DNA of 64,000 bases from Halopelagius longus. Lineage in GTDB: Archaea; Halobacteriota; Halobacteria; Halobacteriales; Haloferacaceae. Every line of letters starts with the position of its first letter. Within the stretch, counting starts at the first letter, position 1. Below the pieces are notes generated by a model. That model was given only the letters and a program-made list of their open reading frames with translations. It was not told where the DNA came from and did no database searches. Positions 1,216 through 40,135 of this stretch are shown here, piece after piece. Both the position numbers and the translations under genes were made by a program. The stretch is taken from assembly GCF_900100875.1 (NCBI RefSeq), contig NZ_FNKQ01000002.1:682001-746000 (forward strand), in the 5' to 3' direction.

Positions 1216-3251
1216 ACGAACCACCCTCCGATGATGCCGAATCCGAGAAGCAACGCCGTCAGACCCAAGGTGAGGAGCGCGGCGTAGTTGCTCACGACAC
1301 CCGTCTGAATCCGACGGACGCGACTACCCGAGAGCAGGCTGACGCTGGAGACGCCGTTGACGACGCCGTCGACGACGCCGTTGTCGAACTTGTCCGCGGC
1401 GCGCGAAAGCGGTTGCACGACGCCGGTGGCCAGCCAGACCTGGTACTCGTCTTGGTAGTAGTTGTTGTACAGCGCCGTCTTGATGCCGCCGAGCTTGTCG
1501 GTGTGTTCCGTCGGCTCGGGGTCGTTGTACAGGAAGAACGCCAGCCCCGCGCCCGCGAGGGCGAGGGCCAGCGAGACGGCACCCGAGACGAGGGCGTCGA
1601 AGCCCGCCGCGTGGATGCCGGCGCCGAAGTCCGATTCGAGGACTTCGAGGTAGTGGTGGGCCGTCAGCCCGCTGAACCCGTGGTCGAGCCAGTCGTGGAG
1701 GAACGTCAGGTGCATGCCCGTCAGTTCCTCGACCGGCACCATGTTCACGAAGCCGATGACAGCGGCGAGGACGCCCAGCACCGCCAGCGGGAACTTGACG
1801 TTCCAGCCGACGCCGTGGGGGTTCCGCGCCGTCTCGGTCCGCGGCTCACCGTGGAAGGTGAGCATCACCATGCGGAACGTGTAGAAGCCGGTGAAGAACA
1901 CGGCGAGCAGGCCGAAGGCGTACGCGACGAGAAGCACCGTCCCGAGGCCGCCCTCGGTTCCGAGCCCGTGGTTGAGCGCCTCGAACAGCACCTCGTCTTT
2001 CGACCAGAAGCCCGAGAACGGGAAGATGCCGGCGAGCGCGAGCGACCCCGAGAGGAACGTCCAGTAGGTCACGGGCATCCGCTCTTTGAGACCGCCCATG
2101 TCCCACATGTTCTCGTTGTGGTGCATCGCGATGATGACCGACCCCGCGCCGAGGAACAGGAGCGCCTTGAAGAAGGCGTGGGTGAGCAGGTGGAACGTCG
2201 CGGCGACGTACCCGCCCGCGCCCAGCGCGAGCATCATGTACCCGTACTGCGAGATGGTCGAGTACGCCAGCACCTGCTTTATCTCCTGCTTGACGACGCC
2301 CATCGTCGCGGCGAAGAGGGCGGTGAAGCCCCCGACCAGAGCGATGATGGCGAGCGCCGTCGGCGAGAGCGCGTAGAAGCCGTACATCCGCGCGACGAGG
2401 TACACCCCGGCGGCGACCATCGTCGCGGCGTGGATGAGCGCGGAGACGGGCGTCGGACCCTCCATGGCGTCCGGGAGCCACGTGTGGAGGGGGAACTGCG
2501 CGGACTTCCCGACGACGCCGCCGAGAATCAGCAGTCCGACGACGGTGAACCACGTCTGCGGCGCGAAGCCGAACGTGTTGATTCCCTCCGCGGCGCCGGA
2601 CGCGAGCGCTTCCTCCGCGAGCGCCGGGAACGACTCCGCCCCGGAGAACTGCGCGGTGCCGAACGTCGCGAACACCGCGACGACGCCGACGAGGAAGAAG
2701 TAGTCACCGAAGCGGGTGACGAGGAACGCCTTCTTCGCGGCGCTCGGCGGTCCCCGCTCGCGGAACCAGAAGCCGATGAGGAGGAACGAACAGAGGCCCA
2801 CGAGCTCGAAGAACATGAACGCCATGAGCAGGTTGTCGGCGACGACGAACCCGAGCATGGAGGCGGTGAACAGGCCGAGCCCGGCGTAGTAGCGCGGGAG
2901 GCCGACCTCGCCCTCGTCGTTCATGTATCCGAGGCTGAAGATGTGGACCAGGAAGGCGATGAGCGTCACGATGACGAGCATCATCGCCGACAGCGGGTCG
3001 ATGAGGATACCGAACGTGAGCGTCAGCGCGTCCTGTGCGCCGGTGGCCCACGTGTAGATGGTCGTGTCGATCGTCTGTCCCTGACTGACGGCGAAGAACG
3101 TCGCCAGCGACAGTACGAGCGAACCCGCAGTCGCGGCGATGCCCGCCAGCGCGCCGCCCTTCGGCAGGCGGTTGCCGAGGAAGAGGGCGACCAGGAACGA
3201 GACGAACGGCAACAAGACGATCGCCGGTGTGAAGTCGAGTATTCCTGCCAT
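1212..3251 (-). CDS. nuoL: NADH-quinone oxidoreductase-like subunit NuoL
   Basis: Largest antiporter-like membrane subunit of the complex I-type enzyme; it contributes one proton channel and, in known structures, the long lateral helix. The 679-residue length is normal for NuoL. Visible signatures include the FPLHTWLPDAMEGPTPVSAL block in the first half, the AYSTISQYGYMMLALG segment after it, and a hydrophobic C-terminus following a charged loop. It begins one base after the nuoK stop and ends in an ATGA overlap with nuoM, so it belongs to the same transcript. Recognition is secure. Confidence 0.96.
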   Translation of the reverse strand: MAGILDFTPAIVLLPFVSFLVALFLGNRLPKGGALAGIAATAGSLVLSLATFFAVSQGQTIDTTIYTWATGAQDALTLTFGILIDPLSAMMLVIVTLIAFLVHIFSLGYMNDEGEVGLPRYYAGLGLFTASMLGFVVADNLLMAFMFFELVGLCSFLLIGFWFRERGPPSAAKKAFLVTRFGDYFFLVGVVAVFATFGTAQFSGAESFPALAEEALASGAAEGINTFGFAPQTWFTVVGLLILGGVVGKSAQFPLHTWLPDAMEGPTPVSALIHAATMVAAGVYLVARMYGFYALSPTALAIIALVGGFTALFAATMGVVKQEIKQVLAYSTISQYGYMMLALGAGGYVAATFHLLTHAFFKALLFLGAGSVIIAMHHNENMWDMGGLKERMPVTYWTFLSGSLALAGIFPFSGFWSKDEVLFEALNHGLGTEGGLGTVLLVAYAFGLLAVFFTGFYTFRMVMLTFHGEPRTETARNPHGVGWNVKFPLAVLGVLAAVIGFVNMVPVEELTGMHLTFLHDWLDHGFSGLTAHHYLEVLESDFGAGIHAAGFDALVSGAVSLALALAGAGLAFFLYNDPEPTEHTDKLGGIKTALYNNYYQDEYQVWLATGVVQPLSRAADKFDNGVVDGVVNGVSSVSLLSGSRVRRIQTGVVSNYAALLTLGLTALLLGFGIIGGWFV

Positions 3252-3252
3252 G

Positions 3253-3555
3253 TTACCACCTCATCGTCGTTGCTTCGGTCACGTCGACGCCGTCGAAGTT
3301 GCGGTAGAGGACGAGCACGATGCCCAGTCCGATCGCGACTTCGGCGGCGGCGAGCGCCATCGTGAACAGCGCGAACGTCTGTCCCGTGACGTTCCCCCAG
3401 ACGAAGGAGAACGCGACGAGGTTGATGTTCGCGGCGTTCAACATCAGTTCGACCGACATCAACAGCAGCAGCGCGTTGCGCCGCGTGAGGATGCCGAACA
3501 GGCCGATACAGAACATCGCGGCCGACAGGAGGAGGTAGTACTGCGGCGGGACCAT
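3253..3555 (-). CDS. nuoK: NADH-quinone oxidoreductase-like subunit NuoK
   Basis: Small membrane subunit of the proton-translocating arm (100 residues, the standard size). Three hydrophobic helices are visible: [18 protein letters not shown], then the segment [20 protein letters not shown], and a third helix containing [19 protein letters not shown]. The two conserved membrane glutamates of the family (in the VEL and AAAEV contexts) are present. The ATG shares one base with the upstream nuoJ2 stop. Recognition is secure. Confidence 0.95.
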
Positions 3556-3923
3556 CAGTCCTCCCCCTCCCCGTCGTCGAAGAGCGCTCGTTTTATCTTT
3601 CGGCCGCCGTCGGCCAGAAGCACCGTCTCGGCCTGTCCTTCGTCACCCTCGTGCTTCGCGAGGTGGAGTGCGCCGTCGAGAGCCACGTCGAGCGTTATCG
3701 CCATGACGATGAACGCGACGAGGAAGCTCTCTCCCGGCACCTGTCCGAACCCGAGGTTGAACATCGCGTAGCCGATGCTGGCCGTGATGTTCACGTCGCC
3801 GAACCCCTGCGGTTGCGGGAACGCCGACGTGAGGAACGCGGCGGCCATCACGACGAACAGTCCGACTGCGGCCAGACCGGGTATCAGGTGCGACCCGAGC
3901 TTCAGTTCCGGTTTGGTTGTCAT
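3555..3923 (-). CDS. NuoJ C-terminal part encoded as a separate gene (NuoJ2)
   Basis: 122-residue protein with two clear hydrophobic helices and a charged, acidic C-terminal tail of about 40 residues. Its position, directly after an 86-residue protein that ends where the N-terminal three helices of NuoJ would end, shows that subunit J is split into two genes. The start overlaps the upstream nuoJ1 stop as ATGA, so the two halves are probably made together. Split J genes are known in haloarchaea; which residues replace the canonical J helix contacts cannot be judged without a structural alignment. Confidence 0.85.
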
Positions 3924-4180
3924 GTGCTACTCACCTCCGCTTCTGTTCGCGTCAGCATCACGGCGAACGTGATGAGTATGAGGACCCCGCCCACGTAGAC
4001 GAGAATCTGCATGGCTGCAAGGAACTCCGCTTGCAGCATCACGTAATGCACCGCGACGCTCAGGAGCGCGCCCCCCAGCAAGAGTGCGGAGTGCCAGATG
4101 TCCCGCACGAGGACGACGCCCAGGCTGCAGCCCACGGTAACGAGGGCGAACAGCGCGAACGCGATGGTTTCATAAACCAT
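3920..4180 (-). CDS. nuoJ: NuoJ N-terminal part encoded as a separate gene (NuoJ1)
   Basis: 86-residue membrane protein with three helices. The middle and last contain the recognisable NuoJ motifs: HSALLLGGALLSVAVHYVML followed by the Y-V-G-G-V-L segment, where the family places its pi-bulge helix (YVGGVLILITFAVML). A good Shine-Dalgarno-like AGGAG precedes the ATG by about nine bases. It is the first gene after a 112-base gap that separates it from nuoI, while the rest of the operon is tightly overlapped. It needs nuoJ2 to make a full J subunit. Confidence 0.9.
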   Translation of the reverse strand: MVYETIAFALFALVTVGCSLGVVLVRDIWHSALLLGGALLSVAVHYVMLQAEFLAAMQILVYVGGVLILITFAVMLTRTEAEVSST

Positions 4181-4292
4181 TGTTTGTGTCTCCTTGAGGA
4201 ATCCTTTTGTAGATTTCGAGAACGTCCGAACGGGGAACCGAGCCGGTTCGTCCGCGGACGTCTACGTTCGGTGAAGCGACCTCGCGGTCACC
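4181..4292 (-). other. Gap inside the nuo operon with small hairpin
   Basis: This 112-base stretch is the only sizeable break between the nuo genes shown. On the coding strand, just after the nuoI stop, GACC and GGTC (4286-4289 and 4278-4281) pair around a GCGA tetraloop, with weaker outer pairing GGT/ACC. The other end holds the Shine-Dalgarno-like AGGAG for nuoJ1. No reading frame is evident. It could be an RNA-processing or attenuation point separating nuoA-I from nuoJ-N; that function is inferred. Confidence 0.35.
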
Positions 4293-4754
4293 TCACTGGT
4301 AGTCGACTTCGCCCTCTCCCTCGCCGATCCACGCGTCGCGGTCGGGATTCCGGGAGTTGAGTGGGTCGATGTCCTTGTACCACGGGACGTTCTTCAGCTG
4401 CTCTTTGTTGTACACGAAGTCGTCCTTCGTGTCCGCGGTGAACTCGAAGTTCTGCGTGAGCAGGATGGCGTCTACGGGGCAGACCTCCTCGCACAGTCGG
4501 CAGTAGATGCACTGCCCGATGTGGAGGTTGTACTGCTCCCCGTTGCGCTGTTCGTCCTGAATTATCTGGATCGTGTCGTTCGGACAGACGTTCTCGCACT
4601 GGCGGCACCAGATACAGCGCTCTTGGCTGAACTTGTGCACGCCGCGGAAGCGCGGACTCACTTCGGGCGCGACGTCCGGGTACTCGACCGTGAACGTCTT
4701 GCCGTCCAATGCGTGCTTCATCGTCGTCGCCATGCCTTTCAGTATTCCAATCAT
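4293..4754 (-). CDS. nuoI: NADH-quinone oxidoreductase-like subunit NuoI (two 4Fe-4S clusters)
   Basis: Ferredoxin-like 153-residue subunit that relays electrons through two [4Fe-4S] clusters (N6a/N6b) towards NuoB. Both cluster motifs are complete: C47-x2-C50-x2-C53-x3-C57 and C82-x2-C85-x2-C88-x3-C92. The start chosen is the ATG at 4754, which overlaps the nuoH stop as ATGA; the open frame extends far upstream antisense-like within nuoH and is not coding there. No NuoE, F or G genes accompany it, so the electron donor for this chain is not NADH via the usual module. Confidence 0.95.
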   Translation of the reverse strand: MIGILKGMATTMKHALDGKTFTVEYPDVAPEVSPRFRGVHKFSQERCIWCRQCENVCPNDTIQIIQDEQRNGEQYNLHIGQCIYCRLCEEVCPVDAILLTQNFEFTADTKDDFVYNKEQLKNVPWYKDIDPLNSRNPDRDAWIGEGEGEVDYQ

Positions 4755-5839
4755 GCGATCACCCCCACGATTATGGCCGTGAGAACCAGGTTGGCGAAGG
4801 AGAGCACGAGCATCCCCTTCCAACCGACTTCGATGAGCTGGTCGATGCGGAGGCGCGGAATCGCCGACCGCGCCCACTGCGTGAACAGGAAGAACGCCCA
4901 GATCTTGATGATGAACCAGACGATGCCCGGCAGGACCGGCCCCGCGGGACCGCCGAGGAACAGCAGCGCGACGAGCGCGCCGCCGAGGAAGATGTGGATG
5001 AACTCCCCGAGGTAGATGAGGACGAAGTAAACCGAGGAGTACTCCGTCTGGTACCCGGCGACGATTTCGGTCGGCGCCTCCGGAATGTCGAACGGGTTCC
5101 GTCCGATTTCGGCGAGGTTCGCCAGCATGAACAGCGCGAACGCGAACGGGTTGACGAACGCGAACCACTGCGGAATCGTCACGCCGGCGACGGTGAGAAG
5201 CGGTTCGGCCTGCACCGCGACGACTTCGCTCGGTCGCAGCGTGCCGGTGAAGATGATCACCGACGCCGCCGTGACGATGAGCGGAATCTCGTACGCGATG
5301 TTCTGCGCGACGGCGCGGAGGCCGCCGAGGAGCGAGTACTTGTTGTTCGAGGCGTATCCGCACATCACGAGGCCGAGCGACGCGATGGAGGAGGCGGCGA
5401 ACGCGAACACGACGCCCGTCTCGGGGTCGGCCAGTTGGATGCCGCTCCCCATCGGGATGACCGCAAAGCCCAGAAGTGCGGAGAAGGGGACGATAAGCGG
5501 CCCGAGGTCCCACGCCGGACGGTCGACTCCCTCGGGGACGATGAGCTCCTTCGACAGCAGACGGACGGCGTCCGCGACGATGATGAGCAGGCCGAACGGC
5601 CCGATGCGGTTGACCGCGATGCGGTCCGTGAACGCCGCGGTTATCTTCCGCTTTGCCCACGGTCCGGCGACGGCCGTCATCGCGAGCATGATGTTGGCGA
5701 TGAGGAACGCCCCGATGAGTCCGCCGACGATGTCGCCGACGATGCCGGAGAGTCCGAGCAGGTTCGCTATCGTCTCCGGCAGGAGAACGGGGTCGTTCCC
5801 GCCGCCCCCACCGCTCTGGAGGAGGACCGTCGCGGACAT
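4751..5839 (-). CDS. nuoH: NADH-quinone oxidoreductase-like subunit NuoH
   Basis: Membrane subunit that forms much of the quinone-binding chamber at the junction of the two arms. 362 residues with about eight to nine hydrophobic helices. Family signatures are visible: the segment after the second helix with NRIGPFGLL, the loop EIGRNPFDIPEAPTEIVAGY followed by TEYSS, and a C-terminal half typical of NuoH. Its ATG shares one base with the nuoCD stop (TGATG), and its stop overlaps nuoI. Recognition is secure. Confidence 0.96.
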   Translation of the reverse strand: MSATVLLQSGGGGGNDPVLLPETIANLLGLSGIVGDIVGGLIGAFLIANIMLAMTAVAGPWAKRKITAAFTDRIAVNRIGPFGLLIIVADAVRLLSKELIVPEGVDRPAWDLGPLIVPFSALLGFAVIPMGSGIQLADPETGVVFAFAASSIASLGLVMCGYASNNKYSLLGGLRAVAQNIAYEIPLIVTAASVIIFTGTLRPSEVVAVQAEPLLTVAGVTIPQWFAFVNPFAFALFMLANLAEIGRNPFDIPEAPTEIVAGYQTEYSSVYFVLIYLGEFIHIFLGGALVALLFLGGPAGPVLPGIVWFIIKIWAFFLFTQWARSAIPRLRIDQLIEVGWKGMLVLSFANLVLTAIIVGVIA

Positions 5840-7506
5840 CAGCGGTCCACCTCGCCGAGGATGATGTCGAGGCTACCGAGGCTGGCGATCATGTCCGGGA
5901 TGTACTCGCCGTTGGACATCTCCGGCAGCGTCTGGAGGTTCGAGAAGCACGGACTGCGAATCTTGAACCGCGCCGGCTTCTCGGTGCCGTCCGCGCGCAT
6001 GTAGATGCCGAGTTCGCCCTTCGCGCCCTCGACGGCGCGGTATATCTCCGTGTCGTCGTCCGGGCGGAGCGTCCGCGGGACGTTCGACTGGATGTCGCGC
6101 TCGTCTTCGGGCCAGTCTTCGAGCAGGTCGACGCACTGCTCGATTATCTTCGCTGACTGCTCGACTTCGCGCATGCGCACGAGGAGGCGCGAGAAGTTGT
6201 CGCCGCCTTCTTCGGTGACGACGTCCCACTCGAGTTCCTCGTAGTAGCCGTAGGGGTCGTCGCGGCGCAGGTCGTAATCGACGCCCGACCCGCGCGCGAC
6301 GGGACCGGTCGCGCCGTAGGACTTCGCGACGTCCTCGGGGAGGACGCCCGTCCCTACCGTCCGAGTCTGCAGAATCTCGTTCGAGGTGATGAGGTCGTGG
6401 TACTCCTCCAGCGCCGTCGGCAGGTCGTCGAGGAAGTCCCGAATCTTCCCGAAGAACTCCTCGCGGGGTTCGGGGAGGTCCCAGACGACGCCGCCGAGGC
6501 GGAAGTAGTTGAACATCATCCGCTGGCCGGTGAGGTCCTCTAAGATGTTCTGGACCTTCTCGCGGTCCCGCATCGCGTACATGAAGATCGCGGTGAAGTC
6601 GCCGTAGATGTCCAACGCGAACGTCCCCACCGCGAGCATGTGAGAGGCGATGCGGCACAGTTCCGCGCTCATCGTCCGGATGACCTGCGCGTACTCCGGC
6701 ACGTCGATGTCCGCGAGGTCCTCCGCGGCGCGCGCGTACGCCCACTCGTTGAGCAGTCCGGCCGAGGCGTAGTCCCACCGGTCCGGGTACGGCATAATCT
6801 GGTGCCGGTAGGTCCCGTTCTGGCAGAGTTGCTCCTCGCAGCGGTGGAGGTAGCCGATGTCGGGTTCGACGTCGGCTATCTGCTCGCCGTCGAGGACCGT
6901 CTTCACGTGGAGGACGCCGTGGGTCGCCGGGTGGTGCGGCCCGACGTTGATGTACATCGTGTTGCCGTCCTCGTCCCGGTGGTCCTCCTGCAACGGGTTC
7001 GCGTGCTCTTTGAGCGTGACTATCTGCGGCCGGTCCTGGTCGTAGTCCATCGACAGGGGGTGGCCCTGCCACGTCTCCGGGAGGAGGATGCGACGCAGGT
7101 CCGGGTGGTCGTCGTACTCGATGCCGACGAGGTCGTACGCCTCCCGTTCGTGCCAGTCGGCCGTCCGGTAGACGGGTTCGGCGGACTGACTCCGCGGGTC
7201 GTCCTTCGAGGTGGGTACGACGACGCTGACCTCCCGCGTCCGGTCGTCGTAGCTCGTGAGGTGGTAGATAGACTCGTAGCGGTCCTCGTACTCCTCGGCG
7301 GTGACGCAGGAGAGGTGGTCGAAGTCCGCCTCGTCGCGGAGTTTGAACAGCGCCTCCTGTACGTCGTCCGGGCGGACGACGAGTCCGGGCGCGTTCACGT
7401 GTTCCTCGCGACCGATGACGAGGTCGCCGAGCAGGTCGGCGAGCTCGTCGCCCGTCGTCGGAACGGCCGAGACGCTCTCGGGAGTCTGCTGTCGTTCCAG
7501 GCTCAT
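5839..7506 (-). CDS. nuoCD: Fused NADH-quinone oxidoreductase-like subunits NuoC and NuoD
   Basis: 555-residue fusion. Roughly residues 1-165 match NuoC (30-kDa subunit), with the YDLVGIEYDDHPDLRRILLP motif near the end of that part. From about residue 185 the NuoD (49-kDa, [NiFe]-hydrogenase-like) domain begins with NVGPHHPATHGVLH and continues through the quinone-site region to a C-terminal FSNLQTLPEMSNG segment. The IGYLHRCEEQLCQ segment takes the place of the usual LHRGIEK, as in other halophiles as far as I recall. Coupled to nuoB by ATGA and to nuoH by TGATG. Function: quinone reduction site with NuoB. Confidence 0.95.
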   Translation of the reverse strand: MSLERQQTPESVSAVPTTGDELADLLGDLVIGREEHVNAPGLVVRPDDVQEALFKLRDEADFDHLSCVTAEEYEDRYESIYHLTSYDDRTREVSVVVPTSKDDPRSQSAEPVYRTADWHEREAYDLVGIEYDDHPDLRRILLPETWQGHPLSMDYDQDRPQIVTLKEHANPLQEDHRDEDGNTMYINVGPHHPATHGVLHVKTVLDGEQIADVEPDIGYLHRCEEQLCQNGTYRHQIMPYPDRWDYASAGLLNEWAYARAAEDLADIDVPEYAQVIRTMSAELCRIASHMLAVGTFALDIYGDFTAIFMYAMRDREKVQNILEDLTGQRMMFNYFRLGGVVWDLPEPREEFFGKIRDFLDDLPTALEEYHDLITSNEILQTRTVGTGVLPEDVAKSYGATGPVARGSGVDYDLRRDDPYGYYEELEWDVVTEEGGDNFSRLLVRMREVEQSAKIIEQCVDLLEDWPEDERDIQSNVPRTLRPDDDTEIYRAVEGAKGELGIYMRADGTEKPARFKIRSPCFSNLQTLPEMSNGEYIPDMIASLGSLDIILGEVDR

Positions 7507-8207
7507 GGTGAATCAGCCCAGTTGTATCTCATGATGAGTTCGTCTTCGTCGATCTGTTCGGCGAGCTTGTCGACGATCTCGTCGCGCTGGAGGTCGCCGA
7601 ACTGTTCGAGCTCGTACGGCTTCACCGTCACCGGCGAGGACTCGCCGTTGGCGATGCGCTCTTGGAGTTTGACGACGCCGTAGACGAGCGCTTCGGGGCG
7701 CGGCGGGCATCCCGGAACGTGGATGTCCACGGGGATGACCTCTTCGGCCCCCTTGATGACGTTGTAGCCCTCTTGGAACGGGCCGCCGGAGATGGTGCAC
7801 GACCCCATGCCGACGACGAACTTCGGTTCGGGCATCTGGTCGTACACGCGCTTCATCCGCGGGGCGAACTTCGAGACGATGGTCCCCGGCACGATGATGA
7901 CGTCGGCCTGTCGCGGCGACGCCCGGGGGACGCCCGACCCGAACCGGTCGAGGTCGTGCTTCACCGCGTACGTGTGCATCATCTCGATGCTGCAGCAGGC
8001 GATACCGAACTGCAGCATGAACATCGAGGACCCGCGGACCCAGTTCATGAACTTGTCGAACTTCGTGAGGATGAACGGCGAGGAGCCGAACGCCTCCCGA
8101 AGCTTCGAGTTGAAGCGGTCGTCCGCACCCGTGATTCGGGCGTCCTGTGTCTCGTTCTGTACCCTACTGTTGTCCGTGACGAAAGGTCGGTTGTGTTCGC
8201 TACTCAT
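7503..8207 (-). CDS. nuoB: NADH-quinone oxidoreductase-like subunit NuoB (N2 cluster)
   Basis: Carries the terminal [4Fe-4S] cluster N2 that hands electrons to quinone. Cysteine ligands are visible as the tandem C71-C72 in GIACCSIEMM, C137 in MGSCTISGG and C167 in VPGCPPRPEA. The start at 8207 is preferred over one 23 codons upstream because it forms the ATGA overlap with the nuoA stop, the same coupling seen at neighbouring junctions. The protein is 234 residues with a polar N-terminal extension of about 30 residues. Confidence 0.95.
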   Translation of the reverse strand: MSSEHNRPFVTDNSRVQNETQDARITGADDRFNSKLREAFGSSPFILTKFDKFMNWVRGSSMFMLQFGIACCSIEMMHTYAVKHDLDRFGSGVPRASPRQADVIIVPGTIVSKFAPRMKRVYDQMPEPKFVVGMGSCTISGGPFQEGYNVIKGAEEVIPVDIHVPGCPPRPEALVYGVVKLQERIANGESSPVTVKPYELEQFGDLQRDEIVDKLAEQIDEDELIMRYNWADSP

Positions 8208-8617
8208 GTTTGTCTCTCTGTCTTCCGACGGTTCGCAAGCGGGCTTTTGACCCACCTGATAGCGCCGTTGCGCCACGCCCAGACCAAGCCGACGACGAGG
8301 ATGCCGATGAATACCAGCATCGGCAGCAACACCTGCGTCAAACTAGCACCCTGGGCCAACGCGGAGCGGTAGATGACCGTCCACGGAAATAGGAGAACGG
8401 TTTCGATGTCGAACACGAGGAACAGCAGCGCGACCATGTAGTACTGGATGTTGAACTGGACGCGCGCCGTACCCGTGGGTACCTCACCGCTCTCGTAGGT
8501 GGCGCTCTTCCCTTGTTCCGGCACTGTTGGACGCAGGAGCGCCGACACCGCCATCATCCCCAGCGGGATGCCGACGCCGACGAGGCCCAACGCACCGATT
8601 GCGATCCAATCACTCAT
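8204..8617 (-). CDS. nuoA: NADH-quinone oxidoreductase-like subunit NuoA
   Basis: First gene of the operon; 137 residues with three hydrophobic helices. The second-helix signature with YESGEVPTGTARVQFNIQYY before VALLFLVFDIETVLLFPW is diagnostic of NuoA. A Shine-Dalgarno-like AGGAG lies about eight bases before the ATG, and a TATA-like box lies 40-47 bases upstream, so this operon appears to have a short leader rather than a leaderless mRNA. Confidence 0.95.
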   Translation of the reverse strand: MSDWIAIGALGLVGVGIPLGMMAVSALLRPTVPEQGKSATYESGEVPTGTARVQFNIQYYMVALLFLVFDIETVLLFPWTVIYRSALAQGASLTQVLLPMLVFIGILVVGLVWAWRNGAIRWVKSPLANRRKTERQT

Positions 8618-8758: not shown

Positions 8759-9394
8759 CTACCTCGACTCTCGGAACGCCTCGACGCCCGTGTCGTGGAG
8801 GTCCCGAGACACCGCGGCGACGCCCGACACCAACTCCTCGTGGTACTCGACGAGGCGTTCTTCGAGTTCCTCGTGCCGCCGAGCGAGTATCTGCGTCGCC
8901 GAGAGCGCCGCGTTGAACGACTTGCCCGCGTCCACGGCGACGATGGGCGCGCCCGTCGGCATCCCGATGACCGAATCGACGGACTTCTCCTGAACCGGCA
9001 CGCCGACGACCGGAAGCGGGTACGCGATGGAGGCGGTCATGTTCGGCAGGTCCGCGGACTTCCCGCCCGCGCCGGCGATTATCACGTCGAGGCCCCTCTC
9101 GGCCGCCGTCTCGCCGTACGCGTACATGAGTTCGGGCGTCCGGTGCGCCGAGACGACGTACGTCTCGTACGTAAAGCGCGCCTCGGGCGCGTCGCGGAAG
9201 TCGGTCTGCTCTTCGAACCCGAGTTCGTCGAGGGCGTCGTGGGCCCTGGACATCACGTCGAGGTCCGAGTCCGACCCCATGATGATGCCCACCTCGGGCG
9301 TCGTCTCGGGGTCCACGTCCGCGTTCGCCTCCGCGCGGAGTCGGTCGATGAGGTCCTGTACGTCCACGTTGTCTGCGTCTGTGTCGTCGCTCAT
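8759..9394 (-). CDS. purE: N5-carboxyaminoimidazole ribonucleotide mutase PurE
   Basis: Moves the carboxyl group of N5-CAIR to make CAIR in purine synthesis. The 211 residues include an N-terminal extension of about 33 mostly acidic residues, then the PurE core: IIMGSDSDLDVM, the VVSAHRTPE motif with its catalytic histidine, and AGAGGKSADLPNMTA for substrate phosphate and ribose binding. The C-terminal helix-rich tail is longer than in bacterial PurE. It begins four bases after the purK stop, so the pair acts in succession: PurK makes N5-CAIR and PurE isomerises it. Confidence 0.95.
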   Translation of the reverse strand: MSDDTDADNVDVQDLIDRLRAEANADVDPETTPEVGIIMGSDSDLDVMSRAHDALDELGFEEQTDFRDAPEARFTYETYVVSAHRTPELMYAYGETAAERGLDVIIAGAGGKSADLPNMTASIAYPLPVVGVPVQEKSVDSVIGMPTGAPIVAVDAGKSFNAALSATQILARRHEELEERLVEYHEELVSGVAAVSRDLHDTGVEAFRESR

Positions 9395-9398
9395 GGGT

Positions 9399-10550
9399 TC
9401 ACTCGAAGGTCAGTCCGTCCCGCAGGTCGCGGGCGCGCGAGAGAAGGTCGGTCACGTCGGCGTCCGCCTCGCCGGTGAGGGTGAGGTGGCCCATCTTCCG
9501 GAGGGGGCGCACGTCGTCTTTCCCGTACCAGTGGAGCGACGCCGCCTCGGCCGAGAGGACGGACTCGACGTTGCCGAGGCGGGCCGCCCGCGTCTCCTCG
9601 ACGGTGCCGAGGACGTTCGCCGAGACGGTGGGCGACCGGAGGGCGGTCGAGCCGAGGGGCCACCCGAGGACGGCCCGGACGTGCTGTTCGAATTGGGAGG
9701 TGCGCGCGCCCTCGATGGACCAGTGGCCGGAGTTGTGCGGACGCGGGGCGATCTCGTTGACGAGAATCTCGCCCTCGCCCGTCTCGAACAGTTCGATGCC
9801 GAAGACGCCGCGGCCCGAGAGCATCGAGAGGACGTTCCGGGCCACCTCGTCGGCGCGTTCGCGCACCCCCTCTGTCGTCCGCGCGGGGACGAGCGTCTCG
9901 CGGAGAATCTCCTCCTCGTGGACGTTCTCGCCCGCGGGGAACGTCCGCACCTCGCCGTCGCCCTGCACGGCGATGACGGACAGTTCCCGTTCGAAGTCGA
10001 CGAACGCCTCGGCCATCGCCGGGCCGCCGAGTCGTTCGAGGGCCGCCTCGGCCTCCGATTCGTCGCGGACGGGGACGTTCCCGCGGCCGTCGTAGCCGCC
10101 GGTCCGGGCTTTCAGCATGACGCTCCCGAACTCGTCGAGGGCCTCGCGCAGGTCCGCCTCGTCGTCCACGCGGCGGAACGGCGGGACGGGGACGCCCGCC
10201 TCCTGGAGGGCCCGCTTTTGGACGAGTTTGTCCTCGATGGTTCGGAGCGTCTCCGGGGAGGGGTGGACGGTGAGACCGAACTCCTCGGATACCTCCGCTA
10301 AGAGGTCCGAATCCGCGAGTTCTATCTCGAACGTCAGGGCGTCCACCCGCGAGGCGAGTTCGCGGAACGCCTCGGGGTCGTCGAAACCGCCGACGATCTG
10401 TTCTCGCGCGACGGGCGCGGCGGGACAGTCTGGCGTCGGGTCGAGGACGACCACGTCGACGCCGAGGGGGGCCGCGGCCTCCGCGAGCATGCGCCCGAGT
10501 TGGCCGCCGCCCACGACGCCGAGGGTCGGGCCGGGTACGGTGACGGTCAC
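9399..10550 (-). CDS. purK: N5-carboxyaminoimidazole ribonucleotide synthase PurK
   Basis: ATP-grasp enzyme that carboxylates AIR with bicarbonate and ATP. The 383-residue protein starts with a Rossmann-like GVVGGGQLGRMLAEAA, has the ATP-grasp lysine region KARTGGYDGRGN, and the metal-binding NEIAPRPHNSGHWSIEGA near residue 260-280. No ATG is available at the right place; a GTG at 10550 fits, because a TATA-like box lies 25-31 bases upstream, the spacing of leaderless haloarchaeal transcripts. It is the first gene of a purK-purE operon. It consumes bicarbonate, as the dab locus supplies. Confidence 0.93.
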   Translation of the reverse strand: MTVTVPGPTLGVVGGGQLGRMLAEAAAPLGVDVVVLDPTPDCPAAPVAREQIVGGFDDPEAFRELASRVDALTFEIELADSDLLAEVSEEFGLTVHPSPETLRTIEDKLVQKRALQEAGVPVPPFRRVDDEADLREALDEFGSVMLKARTGGYDGRGNVPVRDESEAEAALERLGGPAMAEAFVDFERELSVIAVQGDGEVRTFPAGENVHEEEILRETLVPARTTEGVRERADEVARNVLSMLSGRGVFGIELFETGEGEILVNEIAPRPHNSGHWSIEGARTSQFEQHVRAVLGWPLGSTALRSPTVSANVLGTVEETRAARLGNVESVLSAEAASLHWYGKDDVRPLRKMGHLTLTGEADADVTDLLSRARDLRDGLTFE

Positions 10551-33530: not shown

Positions 33531-35936
33531 TCAGTCGTCCGCGGCCGCGGGAGCGTTCGGCACCTTCTGACGGGCGTCCGGCCGCACGGACGCCGGCGTC
33601 CACTCCAGTCCGTCCTCGTAGCGGAACGCGCGGTGGTCTTGGGTCGGGTCGACGACCGTCAGCGAGAGCCAGTCGTTGTCCAGCAGTTCGGTCACCTCTT
33701 CGCAGTCGGCCAGGACGTCGGTGACGCGCTGAACCGGCGCGTGGACGACCGTCGAGAGGCGGAGCGGCCTGTGGTACGGTTCGTCGTCGCGGGCCATCAG
33801 CGACTGGAGGGGGAGACCGGTCATCAGGTCGCCGCCGTTGCCCTGATAGACGCCGACGTTGCCGACGGGGTTTTGGGTCACCTTCGACCCGCTGCCGTAG
33901 ACGGCGTTGTCGACCGTCGAGAAGTAGTACTGGCTGTTGATCCACTGGGTGACGACCACGGGGCCCGCGAAGATGGCTTCCAGCGCGTCGCCGTCGGGGT
34001 CGGTCGACCAGTCGTACGAGTGGAGGAAGGCGCGCCCGTCGAGGTCGAGGTCGCTCGTGAGTTCGCGGGGGCCGACGACGAAGCCGGCGTTACCGGCCAG
34101 CCCCCACTCGGGACGCGTCTCGGCCCAGTCGGCGGCGCGGCGTTCCGTCTCGCTGACGCCCGTCGATCCGTCGGCGCCCATCGACTCGGCGCGCTCGGCG
34201 GCGGCGTTCTCGCGAGCGACGGTGAGGTCTGCGCGCAACTGGTCGAGTTCCCCCGCGTGGCTCTCGGGTACGTCGCCGTCGTACAGTTCGATCTCGTCGG
34301 TCGTCGTGTTGTGTTCGCCGGCGAGGAAGACGGTGTCGTCGGGGATGTCGAAGCCGCGTTCGCGCAGCGCCGTCTTGACCTCGGTGTCGTTACAGATCGT
34401 CGCGAGGGCGCGGGCGTTCGGGCCGCCGGGGTTGCCGGCGCAGGCACCGCAGTCCAAACTCGAGTCGTAGGGATTGTTGGCCGTCTCGCTGGCGTGGCCG
34501 ACGAAAACGACGAGGCGACTGAACTCCTCCCAGCCCATCAACTCGAAGGCGGTAGCGGCGTACTCGACTTTCTCCTCGTGGGTCAGCCCCACCGGAAGAT
34601 CACCGACGTAGGTGTGCTGGTGGTCGACGATCTGCTCGCAGAACTCGTGGTCGTCGGGCACCGCGTCGTCGGCGGTATCGAACAGATCGTAGAGGCGGCC
34701 GGGGACGAGCGTGCGGGCCGCGAGCGCCAGCCCGTACCCGCTGCCGGCGTTCTCGACGAAGCCGAAGGCGGTGGCGGGGTTCTCTTTCAGCGTCTTGACG
34801 ACCTCGCTCGCGGCTTCGCGGATGTTCGACCATCGCTCGTGGCTCGCCTGCGTGTCCTTATCGGCCGGAATCTCGGTGATACGGTGCTGCGGGTCGAGGA
34901 TCGGCGGGCAGGCATCGACCGCCACCTCGGCATCGTACCCCCGGTACTCCATCGGGATACCGAAGAAGCCGGCGTAGCCGTGAGTCTCGTACTCGCCCGT
35001 GGCTTCGATGTGGCGGCGGATAAGCTCCGAGCGGGTGTCGATACAGAAGACCAACTGCGCGTCCGGGCGACCCGACGGCTCGCTCTCGGCGAGCGACCGG
35101 CTCTCGGCGGCGACGCTCTCGACGACGTCGGTTCGGTAACTCGCCTCCCACGCGTTCAGGAACGCTTCGGCGAGTTCGTCGGCCGCGTCGGTCTCGGCTC
35201 CGTCGGGGCCGGTCGAGGGCTCGATATCGACGCCGAAGCCGTCGAGCAACGAGAGGCGGACCGCGAGATAGCCCGCGAGCGTGATTGGGTGGGCCGACTG
35301 CCACACGTCCTCGTCGTCGGCGCGCCGTTTGATGAATCCGGCCCAGCCGGGGAGCGCGGCCAGTTGCTCCTCGAAGATAGGCACCCACTGGCTCTCCGGG
35401 TACGGCTCCAGGACGGCCTCGATGGCCTCGGTCGGCGTTTCGGGCAGCGCGGCGACGACCCCTTCGTCGGGGATTTCGCCGTCGTGTTCGGCCACCTCAC
35501 GGAAGGCCGCGTAGAACCCGGCTTCGCGGTTCGGCATCGACCACTGGGCGTGGCCCTCGTCGAGGAAGGCCGACAGCCACTTCGTCAGTACGTGATCGGC
35601 ACGCTCGGTGTCGGAATCCGGCGTCTCCGGATCGGCGGCGGCGTCCATGCGTTCGAGCAGCGTCTCCGGGTCGGCCTCGTAGCCGCGCTCCGTGAGTTCC
35701 GATTCGAGTATTTCGGGGTCGATCTGGCCGTCGTCGAGCGCCGCTCGGAACGTCTCCGGGCTCGGGTAGCCGCGACCACCGAGCAGGTCGGCCGCCTGCG
35801 TCACCGCCTCGCCGAACGGCAGGTCTTCGAACCCCGAGAGGGGGTTGGCCGTCACGAACGAGTGAATCGGCCAGACCGATCCGACGGTGGTCGCTGCCTT
35901 GTCGATGCTGTCTTCGATAGTGGATTCAGTACTCAT
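33531..35936 (-). CDS. dabA: DabA-type inorganic carbon transporter subunit (UPF0753/DUF2309)
   Basis: 801-residue cytoplasmic-side subunit of the two-part DAB (DABs accumulate bicarbonate) complex. It resembles a beta-carbonic-anhydrase-type zinc site coupled to ion flow, hydrating CO2 to bicarbonate in one direction. Zinc ligands expected from the studied Halothiobacillus protein are all present: C298-x-D300 in LVFCIDTRSE, and H481 with C496 in FVGHASETANNP and DCGAC, with the same His-to-Cys spacing. A strong GGAGG lies six bases before the ATG, inside the end of dabB. Together with dabB, the regulator and the carbonic anhydrase, it forms a carbon-concentrating module. Confidence 0.93.
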   Translation of the reverse strand: MSTESTIEDSIDKAATTVGSVWPIHSFVTANPLSGFEDLPFGEAVTQAADLLGGRGYPSPETFRAALDDGQIDPEILESELTERGYEADPETLLERMDAAADPETPDSDTERADHVLTKWLSAFLDEGHAQWSMPNREAGFYAAFREVAEHDGEIPDEGVVAALPETPTEAIEAVLEPYPESQWVPIFEEQLAALPGWAGFIKRRADDEDVWQSAHPITLAGYLAVRLSLLDGFGVDIEPSTGPDGAETDAADELAEAFLNAWEASYRTDVVESVAAESRSLAESEPSGRPDAQLVFCIDTRSELIRRHIEATGEYETHGYAGFFGIPMEYRGYDAEVAVDACPPILDPQHRITEIPADKDTQASHERWSNIREAASEVVKTLKENPATAFGFVENAGSGYGLALAARTLVPGRLYDLFDTADDAVPDDHEFCEQIVDHQHTYVGDLPVGLTHEEKVEYAATAFELMGWEEFSRLVVFVGHASETANNPYDSSLDCGACAGNPGGPNARALATICNDTEVKTALRERGFDIPDDTVFLAGEHNTTTDEIELYDGDVPESHAGELDQLRADLTVARENAAAERAESMGADGSTGVSETERRAADWAETRPEWGLAGNAGFVVGPRELTSDLDLDGRAFLHSYDWSTDPDGDALEAIFAGPVVVTQWINSQYYFSTVDNAVYGSGSKVTQNPVGNVGVYQGNGGDLMTGLPLQSLMARDDEPYHRPLRLSTVVHAPVQRVTDVLADCEEVTELLDNDWLSLTVVDPTQDHRAFRYEDGLEWTPASVRPDARQKVPNAPAAADD

Positions 35937-37410
35937 TGTAATCCTCCCTGGTGGTCAGGACCGTGCTGGACGACGGTTGGCTCGCGTTCACAAGCGTCAC
36001 GTAGAGGCGCCGGCTGCGTTCGTGGACGCCGGCTTCCATCGCGACGTAGACGGCGAGGAAGACGGCGGCGACGACGGCGTGGAACACGCTCAGTTCGGTC
36101 GGCGCCGTGACGACCGGGAGTCCGGCCAGCAGACCCGAGACGGCCGTGTAGACGAGAGCGTAGACGGCGATGGCGGGGAGGAAGACCAACGGGACCGCCC
36201 CGTAGCGGACCGCCGCCGGGAGCGACGCGTGCCGGACCGTACTTCGGGCCGCGTGGAGCGTGGTGAGCACCACGAAGAAGACCAACAGGAGGCCGCTGTC
36301 GAGGCTCGTTCCTTCTCCCGTCAACAGTGCGAACAGCGTGCCTCCGGCCAGTCCGGTCAGGAGCGTCACGGCGACGCCGGCGACGCCGGTCTCCCGTCCA
36401 GCCGCCTTCTTCGGGCTGGTCCGTTCGACCTCTCCGCCCGCGCTGAGGAACTGGTAGGCTTTGTAGAAGCCGTGCAGAACGAGGTGGGTGATAGCGGCCC
36501 CGAAGAATCCGAGGCCAGCCTGCATGATCATGAAGCCCATCTGTCCCACGGTCGAACAGGCCAGCTTGCTCTTGACGTCCGGTTGGACGGTTTTGAGGAG
36601 TTTCCCGAGCAACGCGCTGGCCGCACCGGCGACGACGACCGCGAGCATGAGCGTCGCGTCAACCGTGACGACCGGCGCGAAACGGGTCAGTAGGATGCCG
36701 CCCGCGTTGACGAATCCGGCGTGCATCAGCGCCGACGCCGGCGTCGGTGCCGTCATCGAGGAGAGGAGCCAGTTGTGAAACGGGACGAGCGCGGATTGGA
36801 TCATCGCCGCGAGGACGAGGGCTCCGGCGGCGAGGAGCCACACCGGCCCGCCGAGCGTCTCGGCCGCCGCGGCGATGCCGGAGACCGTCGTCGCCCCGGT
36901 CGCCCACCACAGCGTCGTCAGCGCGACTCCGAGGAGCGCACTGCTGACGAGGAAGTACTTGCGGGCGACCGTCGCGGCCGCCTGTGCCTGTTCCCAGCCG
37001 CTGACGATACCGATGAGCTTCGCCATCGACAGGCCCATCGTCAGCCAAAGGAGTCCGAACAGGGCGATGTGGTCGGCCGCGACGAGTCCCATCACGACCA
37101 CGGTGAATCCGAACATCGCGACGAAGAAGCCCGTTTCGTAGGAGCTACCCGCCACGTAGCGGCGCGAGTAGGTGTGGATGATCGCACTGAAGAACGTGAC
37201 GACCTCCCACATCAGGATAGTTAGTCCGTCGACGGCGACCACGCCGGGAATCTCCCAAGCGCCACCGAACAGGACTCGGGCGGCGAGTACGCCGCTACTC
37301 GCGGCGAATAGTACCCACACGAGCCACGTTAGTGCGACAGGAACGAACGGCGACTCCACCGTCGTGTCCGGGAGCGCTCCGACCGTCGTCTTTGAGGTGC
37401 GTCCTGACAT
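35926..37410 (-). CDS. dabB: DabB-type proton-conducting membrane subunit
   Basis: 494 residues with about 13 hydrophobic helices; an antiporter-like protein related to NuoL/MrpA. Signature: ALVPFHNWLLSSMTAPTPASALMHAG (compare the WLPDAM..PTPVSALIHA block of NuoL in this window) and KLACSTVGQMGFMIMQAGLGFFGAAITHLVLHGFYKA. In the studied DAB system the membrane subunit couples cation movement to DabA. The stop overlaps dabA by 11 bases. The gene is far from the nuo operon and lies with dabA, which separates it from a NuoL duplicate. Confidence 0.9.
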   Translation of the reverse strand: MSGRTSKTTVGALPDTTVESPFVPVALTWLVWVLFAASSGVLAARVLFGGAWEIPGVVAVDGLTILMWEVVTFFSAIIHTYSRRYVAGSSYETGFFVAMFGFTVVVMGLVAADHIALFGLLWLTMGLSMAKLIGIVSGWEQAQAAATVARKYFLVSSALLGVALTTLWWATGATTVSGIAAAAETLGGPVWLLAAGALVLAAMIQSALVPFHNWLLSSMTAPTPASALMHAGFVNAGGILLTRFAPVVTVDATLMLAVVVAGAASALLGKLLKTVQPDVKSKLACSTVGQMGFMIMQAGLGFFGAAITHLVLHGFYKAYQFLSAGGEVERTSPKKAAGRETGVAGVAVTLLTGLAGGTLFALLTGEGTSLDSGLLLVFFVVLTTLHAARSTVRHASLPAAVRYGAVPLVFLPAIAVYALVYTAVSGLLAGLPVVTAPTELSVFHAVVAAVFLAVYVAMEAGVHERSRRLYVTLVNASQPSSSTVLTTREDYNEY

Positions 37411-38068
37411 CGTTCAGTCCGTTTTACGACCCATCCTGGCGACCGAGGCGAGATCGGAATACCATACTGGTCGTCGTTACCCGTATTTGAGAACGGTTCG
37501 ACTAATAAAACTCCCTATGCTCACAAAATGTTCGCAAATCTTCGATTATAGAACGTTATGTTTTCGAGTGCCGTGCGGTCGGTGTCGTACAGGAGTCTGA
37601 GGTGTTCGACGTTGCCGTCCGGAACCGCTTCGCCCTCGCGTCGTTCCCGCGTCTGGTTCCGGAGTGTCTGAACGACGACGTTTCAGCGGCGTCAACCGGC
37701 CAAAGCGGCCCAGATGTTCGCAGGTACTCGTCGGACAGGAGACGACGAGGGGGTCCGAGCATCCGGCCCGCGTACCGGGTCTCTTCGAGATTCGGTCCGG
37801 CCTCGGACTGAATCGATAACAGATTCGATGCTGTCCCCGTTCATCGACGGATCGTTCGCTTCTGTGCACACGGGTCGGTATCGGCCATCGATTCTTCGGG
37901 GAGATTCGCTCGTGAGGTGAGCTGATAGCACCGAAACGTTCGGTGGATCGACTCGAAGAACCGTATCGTCAACGAGGGCGGGATGCTCGCACGGAAGAAG
38001 TCGGAGGGGACCGTTCTCGTCGGGAAGTCGTCCGGTGAGAGCGCCCGAAACAGCGAACAAGCCGTCGT
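37411..38068. other. 658-base AT-richer region upstream of dabB without a gene
   Basis: Between the dabB start and the regulator stop I find no convincing gene. Open frames here lack the G/C-rich third positions and acidic translations of the neighbours. The half next to dabB is the most AT-rich in the window; on the minus strand TTTTATTAGT at 37501-37510 is the best TATA candidate, implying a leader of about 65 bases before dabB. Possible regulator targets or decayed sequence. Confidence 0.45.
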
Positions 38069-38542
38069 TCAGCGTCCGTTCTCGGGATCGAACTTGCCGA
38101 AGGGCGTCGTCTCGTGGCTCCGAACGAGGACTTCGTCGGCGACGGTGAGTCCCATGTCGAGGAGTTCCTGTGCCACGGGCGTGATATCGCTGTCCGACTC
38201 GCCGATAGCGGTGACGAGGAGGTTCTGTTCGCCGGTGACCAACTCCTGGACCGACACGACGCCGTCGATCTGCAGAATTTCGGGGATGAGCTCACCGCGT
38301 TCGGGTATCGAAGCGGTGCAGTAGAGCAACATACGGAGCGGATAGCCCGATTTCTGATAATCGACGCTGGCGCTGTATCCTTTGATCACGCCGTCGGATT
38401 CGAGACGCTGGATGCGCTTGCGGACGGTACTGTCGGAGGTATCAGTTCGCTCTGCGATGTCTCCGGACGACATGTTTCGGGCGTCTTCCTGTAACGCGTA
38501 CAGAATCGCTCTGTCCACGTCGTCGATCTCGTCCTCGGCCAT
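38069..38542 (-). CDS. Lrp/AsnC family transcriptional regulator
   Basis: 157 residues. N-terminal winged HTH (DDVDRAILYALQEDARNMSS, then DIAERTDTSDSTVRKRIQRLESDGVIKGY) and a C-terminal RAM ligand-binding domain from about residue 65 (VVSVQELVTGEQNLLVTAIGESD). Located between dabB and a divergent carbonic anhydrase gene and reading towards dabBA. A perfect 21-bp inverted repeat overlaps its own promoter, which suggests autoregulation. I infer that it controls the inorganic carbon genes; its ligand is not known. Confidence 0.9.
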   Translation of the reverse strand: MAEDEIDDVDRAILYALQEDARNMSSGDIAERTDTSDSTVRKRIQRLESDGVIKGYSASVDYQKSGYPLRMLLYCTASIPERGELIPEILQIDGVVSVQELVTGEQNLLVTAIGESDSDITPVAQELLDMGLTVADEVLVRSHETTPFGKFDPENGR

Positions 38543-38557
38543 ACCCGTGTGTCCGCG

Positions 38558-38578
38558 ACAAAGGCACTTTACCTTTGT
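38558..38578. promoter_or_regulatory. Perfect 21-bp inverted repeat at the Lrp-type regulator promoter
   Basis: ACAAAGG (38558-38564) and CCTTTGT (38572-38578) are perfect inverse complements with a 7-base AT-rich centre, CACTTTA. It lies 16-36 bases before the regulator ATG, across the place where its TATA box would be. A dimeric Lrp/AsnC protein binding here would repress its own gene and could also affect the divergent carbonic anhydrase. I did not find a second copy near dabB. Confidence 0.65.
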
Positions 38579-38760
38579 ACGTTGCTCGGGTGTAGCACCG
38601 ATTTCTCTGTTTTCGTCTGCCGAGGGGGTGGCTCTCGTGCGGGTAGCATATCAGGTGACGACGGTGTCGGGGGTTCGCGGTGAGAGATCCCCGGCACACA
38701 CGGCCTCTGTATCGAAAACGCCGGTCGCAACGCCGTGGGAAGTCAGTGCAACGAGAAACC

Positions 38761-38768
38761 ATTTTTCG
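38761..38768 (+). promoter_or_regulatory. TATA-like box for the carbonic anhydrase
   Basis: ATTTTTCG, 22-29 bases ahead of the ATG at 38790, leaderless spacing. Confidence 0.45.
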
Positions 38769-38789
38769 GGTCGCCCCCCTCCAACACGT

Positions 38790-39482
38790 ATGGGCACGAA
38801 GGGACTCGAACGCCTTCTCGAAGGCAACGAACGTCACGTACGAGGTATCCCCGGGGACTACTTTTCGCAACTCAGAGGTGCGCAGAACCCCGGCGTGGTC
38901 GCGGTTAGCTGTTCGGACTCGCGCGTCCCCGCCGAGGGCGCGTGGGGCGTCGAGGAGGCGGGCGAGTTGTTCACGTCGGTCAACGTCGGCAATCAGGCGT
39001 GGACGGACGTGGACGGCGAACTCGTCGCGAACGACGCCGTCGGCTACGCCGTCGATTCGTTGGACGTGGACGACGCGGTGGTCCTCGGCCACACCGGATG
39101 CGGGGCGGTCACCGCCGCCTATCAGGCGGTTAACGGCGAGGGGGGCGACGTCCTGCCGGGCGTCGAACAGGCGATATCTCGGCTCGTCCCGTACGTCGAG
39201 GAGGCGAACGAAGCGGGCGTCTACGACGAGGAGACGGAGGCGAGCGAGGCGGTCAACCGCCTCGTGGAGTACCTCGTCCGCGAACAGGTGGCGTTCCTCG
39301 TCGAGAGCGACGCCGTCCCCGAGGACGTGACCGTCTCGGGGTTCGTCTACGACTTCCAACGGGCGTACGGCGGCGACGACGGGGCGGCGTACCTCGTCGC
39401 CGCGGACGGCGACACCGACGGGGACGCCCTCCGCGAACGAGTGCCCGAGGAGTACGAGAACCGCGTTCGTTCGCTGCTCTAA
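38790..39482 (+). CDS. Beta-class carbonic anhydrase
   Basis: Zinc enzyme interconverting CO2 and bicarbonate, 230 residues. Zinc ligands C41, H101 and C104 (VSCSDSR and LGHTGCGA) are present, with the D43-R45 dyad of the active form. The open frame runs further upstream, but the ATG at 38790 begins the usual N-terminus and follows the TATA-like box. Divergent from the Lrp regulator and near dabAB; it likely equilibrates the bicarbonate pool or supplies CO2/bicarbonate to carboxylases. Its stop overlaps that of the convergent kdgA by four bases. Confidence 0.92.
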   Translation: MGTKGLERLLEGNERHVRGIPGDYFSQLRGAQNPGVVAVSCSDSRVPAEGAWGVEEAGELFTSVNVGNQAWTDVDGELVANDAVGYAVDSLDVDDAVVLGHTGCGAVTAAYQAVNGEGGDVLPGVEQAISRLVPYVEEANEAGVYDEETEASEAVNRLVEYLVREQVAFLVESDAVPEDVTVSGFVYDFQRAYGGDDGAAYLVAADGDTDGDALRERVPEEYENRVRSLL

Positions 39483-40135
39483 CTTCGAGCCGACTCTATC
39501 ACGTCGGTGAACTCGCGGGCCGTCTCCGTGATGGACTCGAAGTCGCCCGCCTCGATGGCGTCTCCGTCCATGATGGCGCTTCCCGCGCCGACGGCGACTG
39601 CGCCCGCCTCGATGAACTCGCCGGCGTTGTCGATGTCGATGCCGCCGGTCGGCATGATGGGGATCTGCGGAAGCGGTCCCTGAATGCTCGAGAGGTGCTT
39701 CGGCCCCGCCGTGGAGGCGGGGAACAGTTTCACGAAGTCCGCGCCCGTCTCGAAGGCGCGTATCGCCTCCGTCGGCGTGAAGATGCCCGGCGCGACCAAG
39801 GTGCCGTGGCGGTTGCTCGTGTCGACGACGTCCTCGTGGAAACTCGGGCTGACGACGAACTCCGCGCCCGCCCGGATGGCCTGCCCCGCCGTCTCCCCGT
39901 CGAGGACCGTCCCGGCGCCGACGATGGCCTCGTCGTCGGTGAACGACGCCGACAGTTCGCGGATGAGTTCCATTGCGTCGGGGTTGTCGGCGGTTATCTC
40001 GTACGCCGTGACGCCGCCCTCCTGAAGCGCCTGCGCCACGTCGATGACGGTGTCCGCGTCGGCCCCGCGCATCACCGCGACGACGCCGCTCTCGGTGAGT
40101 CGTTGCATGTCCTCGTGTACGTCGAGTGCGACCAT
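39479..40135 (-). CDS. kdgA: 2-keto-3-deoxy-6-phosphogluconate (KDPG) aldolase
   Basis: Class I aldolase of 218 residues that splits KDPG to pyruvate and glyceraldehyde 3-phosphate in the semi-phosphorylative Entner-Doudoroff route used by haloarchaea. Features: GVVAVMRG, EITADNPDAMELI, GAGTVLDGE, and the Schiff-base lysine in GADFVKLFPAS, followed by MPTGGIDIDN phosphate binding. The bacterial-type Eda family is normal for Haloferax relatives. A TATA-like CTTAATAGC lies 26-34 bases upstream. Overlap with the convergent carbonic anhydrase stop. Confidence 0.92.
   Translation of the reverse strand: MVALDVHEDMQRLTESGVVAVMRGADADTVIDVAQALQEGGVTAYEITADNPDAMELIRELSASFTDDEAIVGAGTVLDGETAGQAIRAGAEFVVSPSFHEDVVDTSNRHGTLVAPGIFTPTEAIRAFETGADFVKLFPASTAGPKHLSSIQGPLPQIPIMPTGGIDIDNAGEFIEAGAVAVGAGSAIMDGDAIEAGDFESITETAREFTDVIESARS

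Follow-up and report, generated by a model that had tools for sequence, protein, structure and literature searches.

A predicted DAB-family bicarbonate accumulator with a putative dedicated Lrp-type regulator and an optional carbonic anhydrase neighbour in Halopelagius longus and other haloarchaea

We examined a 64,000-nucleotide stretch of the Halopelagius longus genome (GCF_900100875.1, contig NZ_FNKQ01000002.1, positions 682,001-746,000 of the forward strand; hereafter the window, in which positions are counted from its first base) that carries the adjoining genes dabB and dabA. The best explanation for this locus, to which we assign a probability of about 0.78, is that it encodes a bicarbonate accumulator of the DAB (DAC) family with a dedicated Lrp-type regulator and an optional carbonic anhydrase (CA) neighbour. 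An initial annotation of the window had proposed a complete four-gene inorganic carbon module (dabB, dabA, an Lrp/AsnC gene and a divergent beta-CA gene) that supplies bicarbonate to carboxylases in a heterotroph, and our analysis supports this interpretation in part. All four genes are present in the places assigned to them, far above chance expectation, and the reported overlap of dabB (35926-37410, minus strand; 494 amino acids, aa) with dabA (33531-35936, minus strand; 801 aa) is confirmed at 11 bp. The lrp gene (38069-38542, minus strand; 157 aa) does stand next to a divergent CA gene, but rather than following the dab pair it shares the strand of dabB and precedes it, across a gap of 658 bp.

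The identity of the two dab genes is well defined. DabA matches the Pfam family DabA (PF10070) from end to end (model positions 1-747 of 747; 891 bits), and its sole relative by sequence in the PDB is DabA2 of Halothiobacillus neapolitanus (9rd0, E=1.5e-105). DabB, a membrane protein with the domains PF00361/PF00662 (Proton_antipo_M/N), has DabB2 of the same structure as its best PDB match (E=1.5e-36), with the NuoL subunits of complex I ranking below. The locus thus shows the gene pair that characterizes DAB/DAC systems, a full-length DabA adjoining a NuoL-like DabB. The active-site residues C298, D300, H481 and C496 occupy the positions given in the initial annotation, and R302 is present too. 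The zinc ligands C298/H481/C496 and the Asp-Arg dyad D300/R302, which correspond to C351/H524/C539 and D353/R355 of DAB2, are conserved in all 111 haloarchaeal DabA sequences compared. The same holds for E395, equivalent to the membrane "finger" Glu444 of DAB2, and for L613, equivalent to Leu658 (both 111/111). In DabB, the proton-path residues S226, H230, K280, S286, H309, H313 and K317 (S256, H260, K310, S316, H339, H343 and K347 of DAB2) are conserved in 109 of 109 haloarchaeal sequences; alanine mutants at these positions impair the function of DAB2, the structure and mechanism of which have been described (PMC13144422). Together with the gated-tunnel residues, the DabA zinc site, the Asp-Arg dyad, the finger Glu, the Leu and the DabB proton-path Ser/His/Lys are common to the haloarchaeal and the H. 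neapolitanus systems. By homology, DabB would pass protons (possibly Na+) inward, and this flow would drive DabA, a predicted buried zinc beta-CA-like enzyme, to one-way hydration of CO2, with bicarbonate building up in the cytoplasm.

The association of the dab pair with lrp is nearly without exception. Our comparison set comprised 391 genomes of the class Halobacteria (86 genera), and gene neighbourhoods were compared at 111 DabA loci from 43 genera, chosen as the best-scoring ones rather than at random. In all 110 assessable loci lrp precedes dabB in the same order and on the same strand; the 111th, in G196, is unassessable, being cut by a contig end. Class-wide, at a threshold of E <= 1e-45, an Lrp ortholog occurs in 236 of the 391 genomes, 234 of them with DabA and 2 without, while 150 genomes have neither, so that only 7 are discordant. 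Five genomes have DabA without an Lrp ortholog: the loci of G196 and G021 are truncated where their contigs start, in G286 only 2 kb separate dabA from a contig start, and short dabA fragments with internal deletions (L204-L207) are all that remains in G206 and G273, which have lost the Lrp gene as well. The converse is seen in G129, which is 98% complete and has the Lrp ortholog and no DabA, beta-CA or alpha-CA; this may reflect either recent loss of dab or another inorganic carbon system. The Lrp protein has the AsnC-type winged helix-turn-helix (PF13404, 47.8 bits; PF13412, 54.5 bits), and its alignments to solved Lrp proteins reach residue 110-132. Conservation, too, is highest in Lrp among the three proteins: its median identity to the window protein is 87%, compared with 66% for DabA and 64% for DabB. 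Because the lrp-dabB-dabA order is invariant, the co-occurrence of Lrp and DabA is near-perfect and Lrp is gone where dabA has decayed, the Lrp-type protein appears to be dedicated to regulating the DAB locus.

Candidate sites for this regulator are conserved as well. The 658-bp gap between lrp and dabB is occupied in the window by a decayed CA-like gene, discussed below, and by a conserved promoter arrangement, CATAAYGTTCTATAAT followed by an inverted GAAC and then a TATA-like TTTAATA. All three parts lie on the minus strand in the window: the upstream element CATAACGTTCTATAAT (37545-37560), about 135-150 bp before dabB and a candidate regulator site; the putative GAAC half-site (37530-37533), which was placed by the aligned consensus and faces the GTTC of the upstream element; and the AT-rich, TATA-like box of the putative dabB promoter (37503-37512), AGTTTTATTA, for which 69 aligned upstream regions give the consensus AGATTTAATA. 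Element k-mers were found in up to 85 of 110 dabB upstream regions, with about 3 expected. A weight matrix built from the dabB sites matches the lrp-dabB gap in 81 genomes and, across the 4.36 Mb of strand scanned, only 6 other places; as the gap sites themselves served for training, the informative part is the rarity elsewhere. The exact element occurs once in the H. longus genome, which is also the single match in the window (0 expected). We do not claim a wider regulon, as hits in this genome, near-matches included, total 18, no excess over the 21 in a reversed control. A different sequence, the palindrome ACAAAGG-N7-CCTTTGT (here with the spacer TAAAGTG), lies at 38558-38578 (minus strand) between lrp and the CA gene, 16-36 bp ahead of the start of lrp, and is a putative operator; its GTAAAGTG-type core could be aligned in 67 relatives, and the palindrome has a single match in the window against 0 expected. 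Lrp may bind at the dabB element or at the palindrome, both of which are candidate sites. We infer that it would regulate dabBA from the conserved element about 140 bp ahead of dabB, the signal probably being carbon or CO2 status.

The fourth gene of the proposed module (38790-39482, plus strand; 230 aa from the ATG at 38790) encodes a canonical beta-CA. The protein matches Pro_CA (PF00484) with 88 bits (cutoff 25.7); with the NCBIfam carbonate dehydratase equivalog, for which the cutoff is 251, it scores only 65 bits. Residues C41, D43, R45, H101 and C104 are where the initial annotation had them and form the CxDxR and HxxC motifs of the family, and Gln32, read from the sequence nine residues before C41, is found in active beta-CAs (compare PMC13144422). 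The motifs and the upstream Gln are common to canonical beta-CAs such as 1ddz and E. coli YadF (1i6o), from which the window protein differs in its halophilic, acidic composition (isoelectric point 4.05). A second, more divergent beta-CA is encoded in the same genome (G000:C2:259615-260055, L034) and is close to the CA that is convergent to dabA in G229; a scan of genome contigs with the window CA as query found only one relative.

Could CA and DAB nevertheless form one CO2/bicarbonate system, co-regulated by the intervening Lrp? In 39 of the 111 loci a canonical CA lies no more than about 8 kb away from dabA, in several layouts and clades, where we estimate that fewer than one would be expected by chance (a span of about 16 kb in about 3.7 Mb, with about 1.2 CA copies); with the CA-like gap gene included, the figure rises to 46 of the 111 loci, in 24 of the 43 genera. 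In the window, moreover, CA and lrp share the single intergenic region with the palindrome. However, no CA is near dabA in 65 of the 111 loci, and 36 genomes have DabA but no beta-CA. The divergent arrangement upstream of lrp is not a fixed feature either, being confined to 7 loci of 3 genera (among them the window and its genus mate G122), with other CA genes convergent downstream (24 loci), on the same strand downstream (4) or on the same strand upstream (4). In a tree the dab-linked CAs are spread over several clades, and some of these clades lie within groups of unlinked CAs; dab linkage therefore arose more than once. The steadier neighbour of the window's CA clade is a KDPG/KHG aldolase gene (39479-40135, minus strand, convergent in the window, with a 4-bp overlap at the CA gene's end), which adjoins the CA gene in 6 of 6 cases; one of these is Halobellus rarus (L032), which has no dab in the vicinity. 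Some genomes of genus g3 have aldolase-lrp-dabB-dabA without a CA between. Co-regulation through the dabB element was rejected, because neither the matrix scan nor the window scan found the element before the CA gene. A CA would also in principle oppose accumulation (PMC8552792). Mapped across haloarchaea, then, the proposed synteny holds as an invariant lrp-dabB-dabA unit and does not extend to the CA gene, and a single four-gene system is possible but doubtful. Given the several layouts and clades, the aldolase pairing without dab and the aldolase-lrp-dabB-dabA loci without CA, CA is a recurrent partner of dab and not a fixed component. The divergent beta-CA would provide an independent, passive interconversion of CO2 and bicarbonate, repeatedly placed beside dab and not obligatory.

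The decayed gene in the lrp-dabB gap of the window (37584-37844, minus strand) belongs to a family of CA-like (CAL) proteins. Intact CALs, of 222-227 aa, are encoded between lrp and dabB in some relatives; the gene is intact or nearly so in 13 of the 391 genomes, one of which (G063) has an internal stop, and it lies in the lrp-dabB gap in 13 of 13. All CAL sequences spanning the site keep the zinc Cys/His/Cys. None of them has the catalytic Asp, which is replaced by Met or, in G232 and G066, by Leu. CALs thus lack the combination of zinc ligands and catalytic Asp-Arg dyad that marks beta-CAs, and the one member tabulated scores below the Pfam cutoff. The window retains about 90 N-terminal residues spread over three frames, with two in-frame stops and the rest missing; this remnant was detected with intact CALs by tblastn (E about 1e-14) and scores 63 bits, compared with 27 for the best of 300 shuffles. 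Shorter remnants are present in G036 and G228. An accessory or sensor role for CAL is a conjecture. We tentatively consider that the haloarchaeal systems might form a distinct DAB subtype, with a dedicated Lrp-family CO2/carbon regulator, a DabB without the NuoL-type coupling Lys, and the rare CAL as a CO2/bicarbonate-sensing or -binding accessory that has been lost repeatedly, as in the window. In about 25 relatives (including L042, L047, L053, L054, L067-L069, L091, L104, L111, L112, L115 and L141) the lrp-dabB gap holds an opposite-strand amidohydrolase gene (PF01979) with no evident link to inorganic carbon.

One departure from DAB2 is in DabB. The ion pair of transmembrane helices (TM) 5 and 7 is missing, with R182, D185 and K235 of DAB2 replaced by L154, S157 and Q205 in the window. 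Across haloarchaeal DabB the R182 position is aliphatic (Leu/Val), the D185 position is Ser/Thr/Gly, and the K235 position is Gln in 108 of 109 sequences. The genuine NuoL of the window (1212-3251) provides an internal contrast, as it retains Glu149, Asp183 and Lys249. In DabB2 homologs the ion pairs (R182, D185-K235) are at least 80% conserved and are regarded as tuning rather than essential features; their alanine mutants in DAB2 lower growth yield by 30-60% and retain function (PMC13144422). Judged by its residues, the haloarchaeal DAB has the essential features of the family and departs from it in ion-pair tuning, and a change of coupling ion is possible. DabAB could accordingly be read as a Na+-coupled bicarbonate importer similar to MpsAB, or as a variant with changed coupling, instead of a proton-driven vectorial CO2 hydratase. 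The lost TM7 Lys, TM5 Asp and TM5 Arg, the Na+-rich habitat, and the Na+/HCO3- coupling argued for MpsAB (cited in PMC13144422) would all fit, but the other proton-path residues and the entire DabA hydration site, including the finger Glu, are retained, and loss of the ion pairs lowered DAB2 function without abolishing it; we regard this reading as rather unlikely. A suggestion made in 2017 with COGNAT (PMC5700660), that such a DabB is a misassigned NuoL/Mrp subunit of some other energy-converting complex, draws on its strong similarity to NuoL and MrpA and is very improbable here, as DabA and DabB find their best structural matches in DabA2 and DabB2, and what appears to be the genuine nuo (complex I-like) operon, most of its genes identified by eye only, lies elsewhere in the window (about 1212-8617, minus strand).

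Several points weigh against a DAB-family accumulator with a dedicated regulator. The absence of the TM5/TM7 ion pair means that coupling may differ, and residues 52-157 of Lrp, where the C-terminal RAM ligand-binding domain of Lrp/AsnC regulators would be expected, have no Pfam match even at an E-value of 10. It has also been argued that a CA in the cytoplasm could short-circuit an adjacent bicarbonate accumulator (PMC8552792). Our literature search found no paper on the physiology or assay of a haloarchaeal DAB. Finally, the distribution of DabA, present in 239 of the 391 genomes (about 61%) and 55 of 86 genera, is no more than suggestive of complementarity with beta-CA (PF00484), present in 351 genomes. 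In its favour, DabA occurs in 36 of 40 genomes without any beta-CA compared with 203 of 351 with one (Fisher p=3e-5), but this per-genome comparison is not phylogenetically corrected, and counted by genus the CA-less cases (14 of 18 with DabA) do not differ significantly, by our own estimate, from the base rate of 55/86 (64%). Alpha-CA was not found in the four genomes (89-98% complete), G129 among them, that lack both DabA and beta-CA.

As to metabolic role, the proposal of bicarbonate supply to carboxylases in a heterotroph is supported by homology and by gene content: RuBisCO was not found in the H. longus genome, which encodes phosphoenolpyruvate (PEP) carboxylase and two carboxyltransferases, with purE/purK in the window (8759-10550). 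A special link to PurK has no support beyond the location of both in the same 64 kb, about 23 kb apart and in separate operons. By analogy with MpsAB (PMC6689103, PMC8552792), the role is most likely bicarbonate supply for anaplerotic and biosynthetic carboxylation, in which the accumulated bicarbonate would feed PEP carboxylase, acyl-CoA carboxylases, PurK and carbamoyl-phosphate synthesis. MpsAB(C) of Staphylococcus aureus is a DAC homolog in a heterotroph that is required for growth at air CO2 and interchangeable with CA; Na+ coupling has been claimed for it, and the accessible text of the two MpsAB papers describes no Lrp partner (PMC6689103, PMC8552792).

The occurrence of DAB in a heterotrophic haloarchaeon was already known. 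In Haloferax volcanii dabA/dabB are annotated as HVO_2410/HVO_2411, a predicted CO2 transporter (PMC8305020), a neighbourhood study of 2017 found the archaeal YbcC-NuoL pair confined to Haloarchaea (PMC5700660), and a 2024 review notes DACs in heterotrophic Halobacteria (PMC10880623). These are the same gene pair in the same archaeal class, and in the accessible text of PMC8305020 and PMC5700660 there is no mention of a partner Lrp gene, of the promoter element, of linkage to CA or of the CAL gap gene. Relative to DAB2 of H. neapolitanus, the haloarchaeal system lacks the DabB ion pairs, appears tied to a dedicated Lrp-type regulator and has CA as an optional neighbour, in a host where RuBisCO was not found.

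The present analysis adds the probable dedicated regulator with its candidate site, the recognition of CA as an optional, recurrent neighbour, the CAL family with its ruin in the window, and the altered DabB. To our knowledge, work on DABs has dealt almost only with the CO2-concentrating mechanisms of autotrophs and with a few heterotrophic bacteria, Staphylococcus among them. A DAB with an invariant and apparently private regulator makes the role of these systems in heterotrophs testable in genetically tractable archaea, and a DabB that has lost its ion pair and a CAL with altered catalytic residues are natural experiments on the coupling and control of DABs.

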